Shown: in pieces, positions 24,080 through 30,385 of the stretch | How positions within the stretch are numbered: the first letter of the stretch is position 1 | Layout of the letters: each line of letters opens with the position of its first letter | NCBI GenBank assembly: GCA_025356095.1 | Contig: JANXUR010000072.1 | Span: forward strand, 1-53,783 | Source: Acidobacteriaceae bacterium | GTDB taxonomy: Bacteria > Acidobacteriota > Terriglobia > Terriglobales > Acidobacteriaceae | Length of the DNA: 53,783 nucleotides | Direction: 5' to 3' | The notes under the pieces: generated by a model | What the model was told of the DNA's origin: nothing | What the model saw: only the letters and a program-made list of their open reading frames with translations | The model's database searches: none | Program-made: the position numbers and the translations under genes

Positions 24080-25249
24080 TTAGTCGTGCTCCTGCGGAAT
24101 GTCTGATGCATGCTCCAGTTCCGGGTCGGCGTCCGGGTCGGCGTCCGGGTCGGCATCCGCATGGGTCGCTATGCCTGCTGGCAATGCGGGTGCCACACTC
24201 ACTCGCACGGGCACGCCGCTGGGCTTCCGGACTCGTTCCTCGGCTTCTTTCTGCTCCCATGTGGCAGCTTCTTGTGCGCCTAATGAGAGGGAGAGTTGCA
24301 CTCCGCCGCGCGCCTTGTATTCGTCATACGCGCGAACAATGCGTTGCACCAACTGGTGCCGCACTACGTCCGATTGATCAAAGTGCACAAAGGCAATACC
24401 TTCTACGCCTTGCAAAATCTCTAACGCTTCAATCAGGCCGCTTTTGCCCTTTACGGGCAGGTCAATCTGCGTGATGTCCCCGGTGATGACCGCCTTGGAG
24501 CCGAAGCCCAGGCGGGTGACGAACATCTTCATCTGCTCGGTGGTGGTGTTCTGGGCTTCGTCCATTATGACGAAGGCGTCGTTCAAGGTTCGGCCCCGCA
24601 TGAAGGCAATGGGCGCAATCTCGATGACGTTTTTTTCCAGGGCGCGCTCAATTTTTTCCGAGTCCATCATGTCGTAGAGCGCGTCATAGAGCGGGCGCAG
24701 GTAAGGGTCAACTTTCTCCTGCAAGGTGCCGGGCAGAAAGCCGAGCCGCTCGCCAGCTTCCACGGCGGGCCGCGCCAGAATGATGCGGCTGACTTTTTTA
24801 GAGAGCAACGCGGAAACGGCCATGGCGACGGCGAGATAGGTTTTGCCGGTTCCGGCCGGGCCGATGCCAAAGACCATGTCGTTGCGCTCGATTGCGTCTA
24901 GATAGCGGCGTTGATTGATGCTCTTGGGCTGGACGGTGCGGCGTCCGAGTGAACGGTTGCGGCCAGCTTCAACGAGCCCGCGTAGCGTTGCCGAGGGATC
25001 AGCCACCAGCACCCGAATCATGCTGCCGAGGTCGCTACTGGTAAAGGCTTGCCCGCCCTGCTGCAACTGGTCGTAGTCGGTAAACAGGCGCTCGGCGCGT
25101 TCGACCGGTCCGGCTTCGCCTTCTAGCAGGATTGAATCCGACCGCAGGTCTATGCGCACGTGCAAACCATCTTCCAGCAGACGAAGATTCTCGTCGCGGG
25201 GGCCGAAGAGCGTAGAGAGATTCGGGCAAATCGCAATGTTTTTCTTCAT
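24080..25249 (-). CDS. phoH: PhoH-family ATPase with Asp-Pro repeat tail
   Basis: About 389 residues from ATG 25249; a GTG five codons earlier is an alternative, and neither has a clear ribosome-binding site. An N-terminal KH-like segment precedes the PhoH ATPase domain with Walker [12 protein letters not shown], the conserved [15 protein letters not shown], and Walker [26 protein letters not shown] closes the core. The family is an ATP-dependent RNA-associated protein genetically tied to YbeY. The last ~60 residues are extra: a charged linker, then a DADP repeat encoded by a 12-bp tandem array. Confidence 0.94.
24121..24156. repeat. 12-bp tandem repeat inside the 3' end of phoH
   Basis: CCGGGTCGGCGT is present three times, the third copy with one change. 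On the minus strand it encodes a DADP repeat in the PhoH tail. The 12-bp period keeps the frame, so copy-number change alters tail length only. Confidence 0.9.
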
Positions 25250-25529
25250 GAAGGATTCGGGCACAGGAAGAACGGCAACATGAGGCGCTCGGAAACAACG
25301 GGTTTACGGCCACAATTCGCAGAGGTTTCTCTCAGCAAGTTTGACATTAACATCTGATGAATCAATGGTTTAGAAGCGACATGGGGAGGCCAAGTGCTGG
25401 CAACTGCCGGGGTGGGAGGAAAGCACATCTTGAGGTAGCGTAGTCCGGTTCGCGGTGGGAGTCAATCTGGAAAACTCGCTCCCTGTGCATCGCTGGCGGC
25501 GACCCGAAGCCGCGCCTAAGAAAACCTGA

Positions 25530-26048: not shown

Positions 26049-27182
26049 CTATACCGGCAGTTCGTCCTGCTGCCATTCGGAGGCTTGCTTTTCTGGCGGC
26101 GGCGCGGCGCACAGGTCGAGCACCAGCTTTTCCAGCACCAGCTTCTTGCTGACTGCGTTGGAGCGGAGCGCGAGGTCGGCGCGGGCTATGAGGCGGATGG
26201 CGCGGGTGAGTTCGCGGCGCGACTTGTAGCGGCGGGCTTGCTTGATGATGTCTTCTGCGGCGAACGGGGGCACGCGGAAGCCCTGCCACAGCGCAGCCCA
26301 TAAGGCGCGGGTGTCGCTGACGCGGCGCTCGAGGATCACCAGCATCTGACGGAAGGTGCGGGCCAGCATATACAGGTGGCCGATGGCGGCATCTTCGCCG
26401 TCGCTGGCGTTGAGCAGCGCGTCTAACATCTCCAGCGCACGCACCCGGTCTTTGGAGGAGATCGCGTCGGTCAATTCATAAAGCGACCGCTGCTTGGCAG
26501 CCAGGACCATGGTCTCCACGTCGCCGAGCGTGATGCGCTTGCGCTCACCCACATAGAGCGACAGCTTTTCCAGTTCATTGGAGATCATCATCATGTCGCC
26601 ACCGAGCGCGTCCACCATTTCGCGGGCTGCGTCGGTTTCCATCTTGATCTCGCGGGTAGCGCAGTCATCCATCAGCCATTTGACGGCCTCGCCTTCTTCC
26701 ACGCGGGCAAACTCCACGATGCCGCAGAATGAGCCGAGCGTTTCGCGAATCTTCTCGTAGCGCTCTTTGTCGGTCATATCCATGCGGCGCTGGTCGTTGG
26801 GGATGCTAATGTGGTCGGCGATGAGGATGAGCAGCGCGTCGGGGTTGGGATTCTTGACGTAGGCTTCGATGGCGTCAATCTTTTCGTCGGATCCTGCGCC
26901 GCGTCCAAATAAATTTTTGACGCCGCGCACGAAGAAGACTTGAAACGGGGCCATGAGTGAAGGGGTGCGGGCGCGATCGAGAATTTCGTGCAGATCAATT
27001 TCGGCGAGGTCAAGATCGTAGAGGCTGAATTCTCGGACTTCGGAGGGGACAAGTGACTGTAATATAGCCTGACGGCAGCGTTTGCGGAAGAAAGCCTCGT
27101 CGCCCACGAATACGTAGGCGGGGCGCAGAGTGCGCTTTTCCACTTCCGCCATAAAGCGCTGGGTGGGGGCAAAGGCTCGCAT
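26049..27182 (-). CDS. holA: DNA polymerase III subunit delta
   Basis: 377 residues with the HolA layout. An N-terminal nucleotide-binding-like domain opens with LRPAYVFVGDEAFFRKRC and continues VFFVRGVKNLF. The middle lid domain contains GGDMMMISNELEKLSLYVG, a conserved HolA segment. The C-terminal part includes LYMLARTFRQML, with AARRYKS-like and LIARADLALRS helices. Delta opens the beta clamp within the clamp loader. Its ATG overlaps the lptE stop by one base (TAATG), so it is the last gene of the psd-pssA-ASADH-like-lptE-holA string. lptE-holA adjacency is common in bacteria. Confidence 0.93.
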   Translation of the reverse strand: MRAFAPTQRFMAEVEKRTLRPAYVFVGDEAFFRKRCRQAILQSLVPSEVREFSLYDLDLAEIDLHEILDRARTPSLMAPFQVFFVRGVKNLFGRGAGSDEKIDAIEAYVKNPNPDALLILIADHISIPNDQRRMDMTDKERYEKIRETLGSFCGIVEFARVEEGEAVKWLMDDCATREIKMETDAAREMVDALGGDMMMISNELEKLSLYVGERKRITLGDVETMVLAAKQRSLYELTDAISSKDRVRALEMLDALLNASDGEDAAIGHLYMLARTFRQMLVILERRVSDTRALWAALWQGFRVPPFAAEDIIKQARRYKSRRELTRAIRLIARADLALRSNAVSKKLVLEKLVLDLCAAPPPEKQASEWQQDELPV

Positions 27183-27745
27183 TAAAAGCCCTCCAGCACA
27201 TTGCTAACCAGCGAGCGCGCGAAGCTGCGGGCGAGCCGGTCAAGCGCGGGCGACTCTTCTTCAAAAAAGCTACTGAGCTGGCCAGACACCTGATATTCCT
27301 CGCGGAAAGTGTACTCCGGATTCTCGAATAAAACTTTGCCTTGCCGGTCGGTAAGGGTGATGTGCATTTTTACAGTAACCAGCTCGGTGGAGGCGCGCCC
27401 GGACTTGGAATCATAGGTTGCGGGAGCGGTGGTCGCCGAGAGGACGGTACCGCGCAAGGTAGCGTCGGCGTCGGCGCCTTCATCTTTTCGGGCCGCGAAT
27501 ACGATGTGATATTTGGTGCGGGTGGTGAACTCACGCACCACGGCCTTGGTCAGCGTTTGCTCGACTTTGTAGGTTTGGGTCTGGTTGAGAAATGCGGGGA
27601 TGGCCAACGTGCGCACCTCAGAAGGCAAGATCACGTTGTGGGCAGAGGTGTGATACCCGCAGGCGGTGAAAGTAAGAGTTAGCACCAGCGTGAACGCAGA
27701 CACCAGCGTCAGTCCAGCCGACACGCGCTGCCGGGCAGAAATCAC
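27182..27745 (-). CDS. lptE: LPS-assembly lipoprotein LptE
   Basis: 187 residues from a GTG at 27745 that overlaps the upstream stop as GTGA; the longer frame upstream merely shadows that gene. A hydrophobic signal segment ends in a lipobox, FTACGYH, so Cys would be lipidated and the protein anchored in the outer membrane. Downstream is the LptE-like stretch LPSEVRTLAIPAFLNQTQTYKVEQTLTKAVVREF. LptE plugs the LptD barrel for LPS insertion. The position directly ahead of holA supports the call, since sequence conservation in LptE is low. Confidence 0.88.
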   Translation of the reverse strand: MISARQRVSAGLTLVSAFTLVLTLTFTACGYHTSAHNVILPSEVRTLAIPAFLNQTQTYKVEQTLTKAVVREFTTRTKYHIVFAARKDEGADADATLRGTVLSATTAPATYDSKSGRASTELVTVKMHITLTDRQGKVLFENPEYTFREEYQVSGQLSSFFEEESPALDRLARSFARSLVSNVLEGF

Positions 27746-28842
27746 TGAATGGCCTCCGGCCCGGGCAGGGTAGCCTCTGCTGAGGGGGGGCTGATGGCAG
27801 GGCTGGGAATGCCTAACAGGCGCTCCGCGATTTCCACGGCATTGCTGGCCGCGACGCGGAAGTTGTCTGCCGTCGCCCACAGCCACAACCCATTGGCGCG
27901 GGCGGTGTCGCGGGTCACCGTCAGCAAGATATCGGGCTGGCTGGCCGAGCTGACGTTGCTGGGCGGCGCCTCTGGGGAGTGGCTCAGTTGCACGTGCTCT
28001 CCGGCCATAGCCTGCTCAAAGTCGGCCAACGCCACCGCGTTTTCTGTTTCCACATAAAGGGAAGCGACGATGCCGTGAAAGGTCGGGGCCTGCGCCAGCA
28101 TCAGTGCGGGGGTGACGGCTTTTTCGCCCAGCAGCGCTGCCACTTGCCGCACGATACGCCGTTGCCGGAGTTCGAGCGGATACATGGCTTTAAGCCCCAG
28201 CCGGGGCAGCAGGTTAAAGGCCAGTTGGGCGTCAAACACTTCCTGCGGCAGGGGCTTGAACGAAAGCAGATTGATGTTCTGGGTATGCAGTTCGTCGAGT
28301 CCGCGCTTGCCGTTTTCTGAAGCGGGCAGCAGGATTGTGGCGACGGCAGTTTTAAGGGGCGCGGAATTATGCGCGCGGGCCAACAGTAGCGCAACTACGA
28401 TGGCTGCCGGATCGGCCACCACCAGCAGGTTGCGAACCGCGCCCGAGGCGGGCACGCGTGCGCCCGCAGGCTCTGCCTCTAGCCACGGAGCCCGCAGCAC
28501 TGCGCCAGCTTCTTCTTCCAGCGCGCTGGAAACATCAACAATCCAGTTGGAGGCGTCGGCGGCCTTGTTCCAGTGCTGGCGGGTGAAGGTCTCTTCGCTG
28601 GCAAAAAACGCAACGTCCACGCCAGCAAATTGATCTGCGGTTACGGCCTGAATGAACGACATCTCGTCGCCAACCACTTCCAGTTGGCCGAGCGCGGAGT
28701 CGTCATCCAGCAGCTTGACATCGAACGCGGGGAATTTGCGTTCGTCGAGCGCCTGCGCAACGTCTTTGCCCTTGAGCGTGGAAGCACCCACCAAGGCAAC
28801 GCGGACAAAACGAGGCGGTGTTGCAGTTGATTCGACACTCAT
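27742..28842 (-). CDS. Aspartate-semialdehyde dehydrogenase-like protein lacking the catalytic Cys
   Basis: 366 residues from ATG 28842. It has the Rossmann start RVALVGASTLKGKDV, a semialdehyde-dehydrogenase C-terminal domain (LPASENGKRGLDELHTQ) and PTFHGIVASLYVET, as in ASADH/USG-1 proteins. Where ASADH has the nucleophile in NPNCST, this protein has ADPAAI at residues 143-148 (28399-28413 covers DPAAI), so the cysteine is missing. It resembles USG-1 homologues, which are inactive paralogues. Dehydrogenase activity is therefore unlikely, and the role is unknown. It sits between pssA (8-base gap) and lptE (4-base overlap), suggesting a link to envelope biogenesis. Confidence 0.82.
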   Translation of the reverse strand: MSVESTATPPRFVRVALVGASTLKGKDVAQALDERKFPAFDVKLLDDDSALGQLEVVGDEMSFIQAVTADQFAGVDVAFFASEETFTRQHWNKAADASNWIVDVSSALEEEAGAVLRAPWLEAEPAGARVPASGAVRNLLVVADPAAIVVALLLARAHNSAPLKTAVATILLPASENGKRGLDELHTQNINLLSFKPLPQEVFDAQLAFNLLPRLGLKAMYPLELRQRRIVRQVAALLGEKAVTPALMLAQAPTFHGIVASLYVETENAVALADFEQAMAGEHVQLSHSPEAPPSNVSSASQPDILLTVTRDTARANGLWLWATADNFRVAASNAVEIAERLLGIPSPAISPPSAEATLPGPEAIQ

Positions 28843-28850
28843 GAAAATTC

Positions 28851-29702
28851 TTACGCCTCTTGGGCTACGGGAGTGGTCTTCCCGTGCCGCAAAATGAATA
28901 CCAGCCGCCAATAGACGCCGAAGAACATATAGCCCAACGCGACAAGCAACAGGACGGGCCCGGAATACGACCAAACCAAGGCAATCAGCGCGCCCAGAAT
29001 GATGATGGTGCGGAAGGGACGGCGTTGGCTGAGTTGCAGATTCTTGAAGCTGTAAAAGCGCCACGTGCTGACCATGAGGAATCCAGTGGCCAACACCAGC
29101 AACATCCAGATGGCGGAGATCCACCAGGTGGCGACGGGCTCGCCGCCGTTGAAGTGGACAATCGCGGCAAGCACACCGGCGGCGGCAGGAATCGGCATGC
29201 CGACAAAATACTTGCGATCCGGGCGGCCGGGATTCGAGGGCACGGGATTGACGGCGATATTGAAGCGGGCAAGCCGGGCCGCGCCACACAGCAAATAGAT
29301 GAAGCAGGCCACTGCTCCGATTTGCAGCAGACGGGTGCGCATGGCGGGCTGCGCCGCCAGTTCCGGCAACAGGCGTAAGCCCCAGTTGTAGGCGAGAAAT
29401 GCGGGTGCCACACCGAAGGTGACGACATCGGCGAGCGAGTCATATTCGCGGCCAAAGTCGCTGTTGGTGCCGGTGAGACGAGCGATGGTGCCGTCCAGAA
29501 AGTCGAACACAGCGGCCAAGCCGATGGCTTTAGCGGCTAAGTCGAAGTGCCAAGGTTCGGCGGGCGAGCCATGCATCGTCTGCAAGAGGGCGTAAAAGCC
29601 AGCGGCCATGTTCAGCGTGGTGAGTGAAGAGGGCAGCAGATATAAGCCCCGGCGCAATTGGCGGGGGCGACGACGCGGGGCAGAAGCCGCTTGGTCGCTC
29701 AT
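28851..29702 (-). CDS. pssA: CDP-diacylglycerol-serine O-phosphatidyltransferase
   Basis: 283 residues with about eight membrane segments. The CDP-alcohol phosphotransferase signature DxxDGxxARx8GxxxDxxxD is intact, with Asp67, Asp70, Gly71, Ala74, Arg75, Gly84, Asp88 and Asp92 in order. It condenses CDP-diacylglycerol with serine to form phosphatidylserine in the inner membrane. It overlaps psd by four bases, so synthesis and decarboxylation of phosphatidylserine are co-expressed to give phosphatidylethanolamine. An Arg-rich N-terminus precedes the first helix. Confidence 0.93.
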
Positions 29703-30385
29703 ACCTGCTCCTCCGTGCGCTGCACGGTAGGCAGAACAGTAGGCAGAACAGTAGGCAGAACGGCGAGCAGAACAGCGGGCAGCACGGCGAGCACACTACT
29801 GCCTCCACGTACCCGGTCTCCCTTTTTCACTCGCACCTGCGCCGCCGGGTCAAAGACCACGTCCACCCGTGAGCCAAACTTGATGAGGCCGATGCGTTCG
29901 CCGCGGGCGACTAGGTCGCCCACCTGCTTGTTGCAGATGATACGGCGCGCGATTAGACCGGCGATCTGCTTGAAGATGAGGGTTTGGCCTTCGCCTTCTA
30001 CGGTGACGATGTTCTGCTCGTTGTCTTCTGCCGACTGCGCGCTCATGGCGTTGAGGAACTTGCCGCGACGATACTCCACCGCGCGGACGACGCCGGCAAT
30101 GGGAGTGCGGTTCACGTGGACATCAAAAACACTAAGGAAGATGCTGAGGCGGAGCCGTTGGCCGCCGGCTTCCCACACTGTGCTCACGTCGGTGACAACG
30201 CCATCGCCGGGCGAAACAATGAGGCCGGGCTCTTGCGGAATCTGGCGTTCGGGGTCGCGAAAAAAATAGAGGCAGAACAGAGCAGCGAGCACAAGTGGGG
30301 TCGCCCATAACGGCGCCGTGAGCCATCCGAGGAGTACAGCTGCTGCCAGCAGTGGCAACGCGTAGAGGTATCCGTCTCGCACCAT
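29699..30385 (-). CDS. psd: Phosphatidylserine decarboxylase, short form
   Basis: 228 residues, the size of the short (PSD-A) family. Two N-terminal membrane helices come first. Then follow [24 protein letters not shown] and the [16 protein letters not shown] motif. The self-cleavage site is GGSS at 194-197; Ser196 would become the pyruvoyl group. The enzyme converts phosphatidylserine to phosphatidylethanolamine. The C-terminus is unusual: after SSVLA comes a run of about 22 residues made of VLP(T/A) repeats, encoded by a 12-bp array. This hydrophobic tail may lie along the membrane or be slippage-derived. Confidence 0.92.
29727..29798. repeat. 12-bp tandem repeat inside the 3' end of psd
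   Basis: Six 12-bp units start at 29727. The first two are identical (GTAGGCAGAACA), the third differs by one base, and the others are more diverged. They encode the VLPT-type tail of Psd on the minus strand. Confidence 0.88.

Follow-up and report, generated by a model that had tools for sequence, protein, structure and literature searches.

The window analysed here, by which we mean the whole stretch of 53,783 nucleotides, comes from an Acidobacteriaceae bacterium. Five genes on its minus strand are transcribed in the order psd, pssA, a gene resembling that of aspartate-semialdehyde dehydrogenase (ASADH), lptE and holA, and four segments of the ASADH-like protein were located by alignment:

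29699..30385, minus strand: psd (phosphatidylserine decarboxylase); PF02666, and NF003685 at 184.4 bits against a cut-off of 183
28851..29702, minus strand: pssA (CDP-diacylglycerol-serine O-phosphatidyltransferase), immediately upstream of the ASADH-like gene; PF01066, and TIGR00473 at 108.8 bits against a cut-off of 107
27742..28842, minus strand: gene of a cysteine-less ASADH-fold pseudoenzyme of 366 amino acids, assigned from the open reading frame and its translation, PF01118 and PF02774, the predicted model and structure matches
28768..28788, minus strand: dinucleotide loop, residues 19-25 (GASTLKG), with Thr22 for the middle glycine of GxxGxxG
28399..28416, minus strand: former nucleophile loop, residues 143-148 (ADPAAI), with Asp144 and Pro145 at the columns of the ASADH asparagine and catalytic cysteine
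28309..28329, minus strand: residues 172-178 (LPASENG), at the ASADH nicotinamide loop Q..SGxG; Pro173 and Ser175 are conserved in the family
28069..28092, minus strand: residues 251-258 (QAPTFHGI), with Gln251 for the ASADH substrate arginine and Ile258 for the acid-base histidine, and holding the conserved Phe255 and the family-specific His256
27182..27745, minus strand: lptE, with the GTG start at 27745 chosen here; PF04390 at 52.9 bits against a cut-off of 23
26049..27182, minus strand: holA (DNA polymerase III subunit delta); TIGR01128 at 212 bits against a cut-off of 80

The open reading frame of the ASADH-like gene and its translation are intact. Eight nucleotides separate the gene from pssA, which itself overlaps psd by 4 nt, and given the GTG start chosen for lptE, the ASADH-like gene and lptE overlap by another 4 nt (27742-27745). 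An earlier note, made from the sequence alone, had described a gene that follows psd and pssA and overlaps lptE, set among lipid and lipopolysaccharide genes rather than amino-acid genes, and the neighbours identified here agree with that description, the overlap depending on the GTG start. The pssA and psd products exceed their NCBIfam cut-offs narrowly; that of holA is also above its cut-off, and LptE is above its Pfam cut-off.

Both Pfam domains of the ASADH superfamily match the window protein (PF01118 and PF02774, at 38.4 and 45.8 bits against a gathering score of 26), while every NCBIfam model named for ASADH stays far below its cut-off, the best being NF004224 (133.9 against 284 bits), with asd_B TIGR01296 at 89.1 against 324.2 bits. 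An AlphaFold2 model built on a 47-row alignment reached a pLDDT of 92.7 and a pTM of 0.91. The top Foldseek match of this model is 2hjs, a USG-1 homologue from P. aeruginosa (E 3e-28), which is also the closest solved (PDB) sequence, and VIA-align gives Z scores of about 38 to the Vibrio and Streptococcus ASADHs and to 2hjs (for 2qz9_A, Z 38.1 and 2.3 A across 325 residues). In its predicted structure the protein has the complete ASADH fold, as the earlier note had expected, and with both Pfam domains and this fold it belongs in the ASADH/ArgC fold superfamily.

The active site was read from an alignment of family relatives with Vibrio Asd2 and six ASADH loci, seven ASADH rows together, and all seven catalytic and substrate columns checked (E. 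coli Cys135, Gln162, Glu240, Lys243, Arg267, His274 and Arg102) differ in the window protein. The motif NPNCST aligns with VADPAA, which places Pro145 in the cysteine column and Asp144 in that of the preceding asparagine; the earlier note had set ADPAAI against NPNCST, and the loop is indeed there, but that alignment was off by one. The catalytic cysteine is missing, as claimed, and the search for a replacement elsewhere ended with the composition of the protein: since it contains no cysteine in 366 residues, no other cysteine can take over the role of the nucleophile. Because the acid-base histidine column holds Ile258, the catalytic histidine is lost too. The retained C-terminal histidine region of the earlier note therefore has to be given up, as His256 aligns with a tyrosine of Vibrio Asd2 and not with the catalytic position. 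Of the remaining columns, the substrate carboxylate arginine (Arg267) is replaced by Gln251, the amino-group glutamate (Glu240) by Gln227, the nicotinamide-loop glutamine (Gln162) by Leu172, the phosphate-site lysine (Lys243) by Arg229 and the phosphate arginine (Arg102) by Glu109. PMC3276109 describes the role of SGxG in the ASADH nicotinamide loop and reports that the single change C136S in H. influenzae ASADH leaves less than 0.01% of the activity.

In the window's genome, a PF02774 search found three places: the window gene, argC and asd, with the argC label, like that of lysC below, assigned by reading the sequences. The asd gene carries the motif NPNCSA and adjoins a lysC-like open reading frame, so the check proposed earlier, to look for a genuine asd elsewhere in the genome, gave a positive answer, and automatic annotation of the window gene as aspartate-semialdehyde dehydrogenase would mislead, just as the earlier note had warned.

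How far these replacements extend was read from a table of 134 family rows, a few of them fragments, with gaps set aside; it leaves out duplicates (L102-L105, L115), ASADH-like loci (L113, L131, L132, L151) and one diverged locus (L152). The nucleophile column has cysteine in 0 of 130 family rows against 7 of 7 ASADH rows, and proline in 114; the column before it has histidine in 101 of 130, with aspartate in the window protein and three others. The middle glycine of the dinucleotide loop is found in 2 of 131 family rows against 7 of 7, and all seven ASADH rows keep the cysteine, histidine, arginine, glutamate, lysine, glutamine and glycines. At the substrate arginine the family has glutamine in 87 of 130 rows and arginine in 10. 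The acid-base column is still histidine in 64 of 130 (Ile258 in the window protein) and the substrate glutamate column still glutamate in 89 of 121 (Gln227 in the window protein). In place of the old catalytic set stands another group of conserved residues: Phe255 (130/130), His256 (120/130), Pro173 (126/131), Gln188 (129/131), Ser175 (124/131) and Asp326 (125/129), all near-invariant. At three cleft positions (Asp144, Leu172 and Ile258) the window copy does not have the usual family residue, and its site may therefore not be the same as in its relatives.

The conserved positions concentrate where the active site used to be. Of 318 positions, 24 lie in four old active-site loops, whose limits were set by hand after inspection of the alignment. 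These loops account for 11 of the 31 positions with conservation of at least 80% (hypergeometric p 1.3e-6), for 5 of 16 at the 90% level (p 0.004) and for 12 of 50 at the 70% level (p 4e-5); this clustering is judged from aligned loops rather than coordinates. Some of the conserved residues are ancestral, and with the count restricted to residues rare in ASADH the loops account for 3 of 5 at the 80% level (p 0.003) and 4 of 14 at the 70% level (p 0.015). Sixteen listed pairs of relatives sharing at least 85% identity, which are non-independent and among which the window protein does not figure, gave dN/dS values of 0.037-0.150 in 15 cases; the remaining pair, with dS of 0.01 and dN/dS of 0.22, is little informative. 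Judged on these sequence comparisons, the family is under purifying constraint, and its cleft is rebuilt rather than left to decay.

The window gene was matched in 115 of 120 genomes of the same taxonomic family, the window's own included, which excludes chance as its origin; the nearest relative found is 54% identical. Across the phylum, a single-sequence search matched 113 of 297 genomes, some by ASADHs such as L085, and a 43-row profile matched 255 of 297, its weaker matches including ASADH and probably ArgC, while its strong full-length matches span many lineages. Family members are carried by 13 of 14 named contigs, from Acidobacteriaceae, other Acidobacteria, Aminicenantes, candidate division B38 and an uncultured bacterium. 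These contigs come from a single pattern scan of low sensitivity, by which presence outside Acidobacteriota was sought. The fourteenth contig (L113), a candidate from outside the phylum in a Rhodospirillaceae metagenome-assembled genome, was rejected as an ASADH, having scored 125 bits with the family model and 235 with the ASADH model. In the tree, the family rows (49 of 64 rows; 17 of 30 in a second tree) lie on one side of a branch with 100/100 support, and the ASADHs and USG-1 lie opposite. A joint clade of the family with USG-1, which has two rows in the tree, is not rejected (p-AU 0.332), and USG-1 may therefore yet prove to be the sister group. The window protein shares the features of this cysteine-less, pssA-adjacent family, namely its position directly after pssA, the cysteine-less loop, the Phe-His motif and its side of the tree; it belongs to an old Acidobacteriota family that is usually the third gene of the psd-pssA operon for phosphatidylethanolamine (PE).

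Gene order gives the family its most persistent neighbour. Among the first 90 family loci, 85 have pssA no more than 300 nt upstream, with a 4-nt overlap with the family gene in 29 of these, and 81 have psd upstream; none of six ASADH control loci is beside pssA or psd. In a larger set the gene directly follows pssA at 121 of 132 loci and in 30 of 37 family labels, or at 121 of 137 loci once five diverged loci of label f23 are counted. This set omits the loci excluded from the residue table and L153, which has no family match; manual entry was used for its loci from L106 on and for the family labels. Eleven loci of the set do not directly follow pssA: L064, L071, L074, L075, L098, L133, L136, L137, L139, L140 and L143. 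Of these, L133 begins at the end of a contig, and for L143, L074 and L137 the upstream sequence amounts to about 390-520 nt. Downstream neighbours were counted at 131 loci, a slightly different set (L152, L175 and L176 in; L112, L114, L134 and L150 out; L177 and L178 in neither count): LptE follows at 41, an MsbA-like ABC gene at 12, YicC at 2 and none of these at 76, with pssA upstream at 117 of the same 131. With LptE after 41 and pssA before most, the lptE neighbourhood is confined to some lineages, and it is that of pssA which persists. The tie to LptE as such, suggested by the earlier note, thus does not hold across the family, and an LptE-specific partner was rejected on the same count.

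Even the association with pssA is not strict. Five of the 120 genomes of the same taxonomic family gave no match to the window gene, and at 20 pssA loci (17 with psd upstream) in genomes without a strong family match, a family open reading frame was sought and found at none. A set of 20 genomes was also searched for Psd (PF02666), most of them from labels in which the gene is no longer beside pssA and a few lacking the gene. A match is absent from six (G207, G265, G303, G273, G257 and G400, 92-97% complete), which suggests loss of the PE route via phosphatidylserine. G273 is not among the matches of the 43-row profile; in the other five the family gene is retained, with an MsbA-like gene as its neighbour. 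The gene is therefore neither generally needed for PssA or Psd nor dropped together with Psd, and a strict PssA/Psd subunit was rejected.

Three arrangements were seen alongside these counts. Locus L153 (genome G115), from one of the five genomes of the window's own taxonomic family that gave no match, has psd-pssA and no family match beside it. Under label f23, the stretches examined carry diverged family-like genes (L152, L175-L178) that are not adjacent to pssA, at 3501-4316 in L177, 3498-4310 in L178 and 2484-4334 in L175, those of L177 and L178 encoding about 271 amino acids. Two loci (L138, 2606-8269; L090, 3384-8297) have a compact block of psd, pssA, the family gene, an msbA-like gene and yicC, with a guanylate kinase gene next in line (matching TIGR03263 in L138), and this block is possibly near the ancestral order.

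Since its relatives stand nearly always directly after pssA, the window protein is probably a helper of lipid metabolism and not an enzyme of amino-acid synthesis, gene order being the ground from which this tie is inferred. Our preferred reading, held tentatively and at a little under even chances, is that of a cytosolic pseudoenzyme with the ASADH fold, dead as aspartate-semialdehyde dehydrogenase and serving as a ligand-binding accessory of phospholipid synthesis; the structural or regulatory role proposed in the earlier note is likewise an inference. It would no longer carry out redox chemistry, and the remodelled cleft of the former ASADH would bind a small ligand instead. The protein would then act as a sensor or scaffold of inner-membrane phospholipid synthesis, on PssA in most lineages, and might set the output of PE relative to other envelope lipids. 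One speculative candidate for the ligand is L-serine, the substrate of PssA, which resembles aspartate semialdehyde in size and shape; loss of the carboxylate-binding arginine speaks against its being bound in the old way. A more specific version, in which the pseudoenzyme is a dedicated metabolite sensor of PE synthesis in Acidobacteriota, detecting a lipid precursor or an amino acid in the former ASADH cleft and gating PssA, seems to us unlikely as it stands. If it were true, such a sensor would couple amino-acid supply to the output of membrane and outer-membrane lipids, lptE or msbA-like genes often following.

The same conserved cleft could instead belong to a repurposed enzyme, one that carries out non-thiol chemistry on the precursor of a lipid head group, or on some related metabolite, with a site made of His256, His144 (in most members), Pro173, Ser175, Gln188 and Asp326. 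The near-invariance of Phe255, His256, Pro173 and Gln188 and the concentration of conserved positions in the old active-site loops are what such an enzyme would leave, yet the window copy remains in the operon with Asp in place of His144 and Leu in place of Glu/Gln172, and with the middle glycine of the dinucleotide loop almost gone and the NADP 2'-phosphate positions often acidic, no redox cofactor is evident; we consider this improbable. A general envelope-lipid factor, partnered with the exporter and lipopolysaccharide-transport side (MsbA, LptE) rather than with PssA, would explain the LptE and MsbA-like genes downstream and the five genomes in which the gene is retained, adjoining an MsbA-like gene, without a Psd match. 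Two of the MsbA-like proteins score just below the TIGR02203 cut-off of 602 (584.6 bits in L138, 568.2 in L074). Against such a partnership, the 76 of 131 loci with neither LptE, MsbA-like gene nor YicC downstream have pssA upstream in 71 cases, and we hold it to be distinctly unlikely. We give little credence to a passive operon passenger, an old asd duplicate kept beside pssA whose function is unrelated to lipids. Gene order can persist by descent, and the gene is kept where it is separated from pssA (labels f36, f42, f49, f55, f63 and f23), but adjacency to pssA holds in 30 of the 37 family labels, among members about 24-53% identical to the window protein, and it stays while the downstream genes vary between lineages.

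Cysteine-less relatives of ASADH are already known as a kind in USG-1, and the window protein has much in common with them: 2hjs is its best match in structure and in PDB sequence, E. coli Usg likewise has the ASADH fold without NPNC (its loop is VPDSLT, and that of 2hjs is SSPCAV, with a cysteine one place earlier), glutamine stands for the substrate arginine in both USG-1 (QAPVF) and the family, and NF004224, the best NCBIfam model, scores E. coli Usg above its cut-off. It is nevertheless very improbable that the window protein is a true member or orthologue of USG-1, its own NF004224 score lying at less than half of that cut-off. In the unconstrained trees USG-1 falls on the ASADH side of the 100/100 branch, though a joint clade is not rejected (p-AU 0.332); USG-1 keeps the GATGxVG dinucleotide loop that the family has lost and is without the family's His-Pro and Phe-His; and usg lies between pdxB and truA in E. 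coli, whereas psd-pssA precede and lptE-holA follow the window gene. To our knowledge, the function of Usg has not been established. The likeness to bacterial ASADH (Vibrio cholerae Asd2, 2qz9/2r00) is one of fold and of the shared residues Glu184, Phe209, Asn210 and Asp326; the window protein is without the catalytic cysteine and histidine, the substrate arginine and glutamate and the phosphate-site arginine, and sits in a psd-pssA operon instead. ASADH activity is very unlikely on the sequence, and the description of the protein as a pseudoenzyme with respect to ASADH holds up. A functional ASADH, for which the matching domain models might be taken to speak, has practically no chance of being right and was rejected: there is no cysteine, seven catalytic and substrate residues are replaced, and the genuine asd stands beside its lysC-like neighbour. 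PssA and Psd, the adjacent genes in most family loci, are themselves the lipid enzymes, and family-model searches reported no similarity of the window pseudoenzyme to either.

The finding matters beyond this locus. We know of no good understanding of how bacterial PssA activity is controlled outside E. coli, and a conserved gene in third place of the psd-pssA operon gives experiments a point of entry to that control. The protein also illustrates clearly how the active-site cleft of a pseudoenzyme can be rebuilt and kept rather than lost. Annotation would be corrected across many Acidobacteriota, where a protein with ASADH domains (as shown for the window protein) nonetheless directly follows pssA at most of the loci counted. 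In the openly available literature, mostly without subscription papers, a search of titles and the beginnings of abstracts gave no paper describing a large and separate family fixed beside pssA.

Two tandem repeats of 12-nt units were also seen in the window. One, at 29727-29793 on the minus strand, lies at the 3' end of psd and encodes a hydrophobic C-terminal tail outside the PF02666 match (residues 36-199 of 228). The other, at 24120-24159, falls within the 3' part of a PhoH-like open reading frame (24080-25264, minus strand; NF007827 at 220.8 bits, below the cut-off of 380) and encodes a tail of repeated Asp-Ala-Asp-Pro units.
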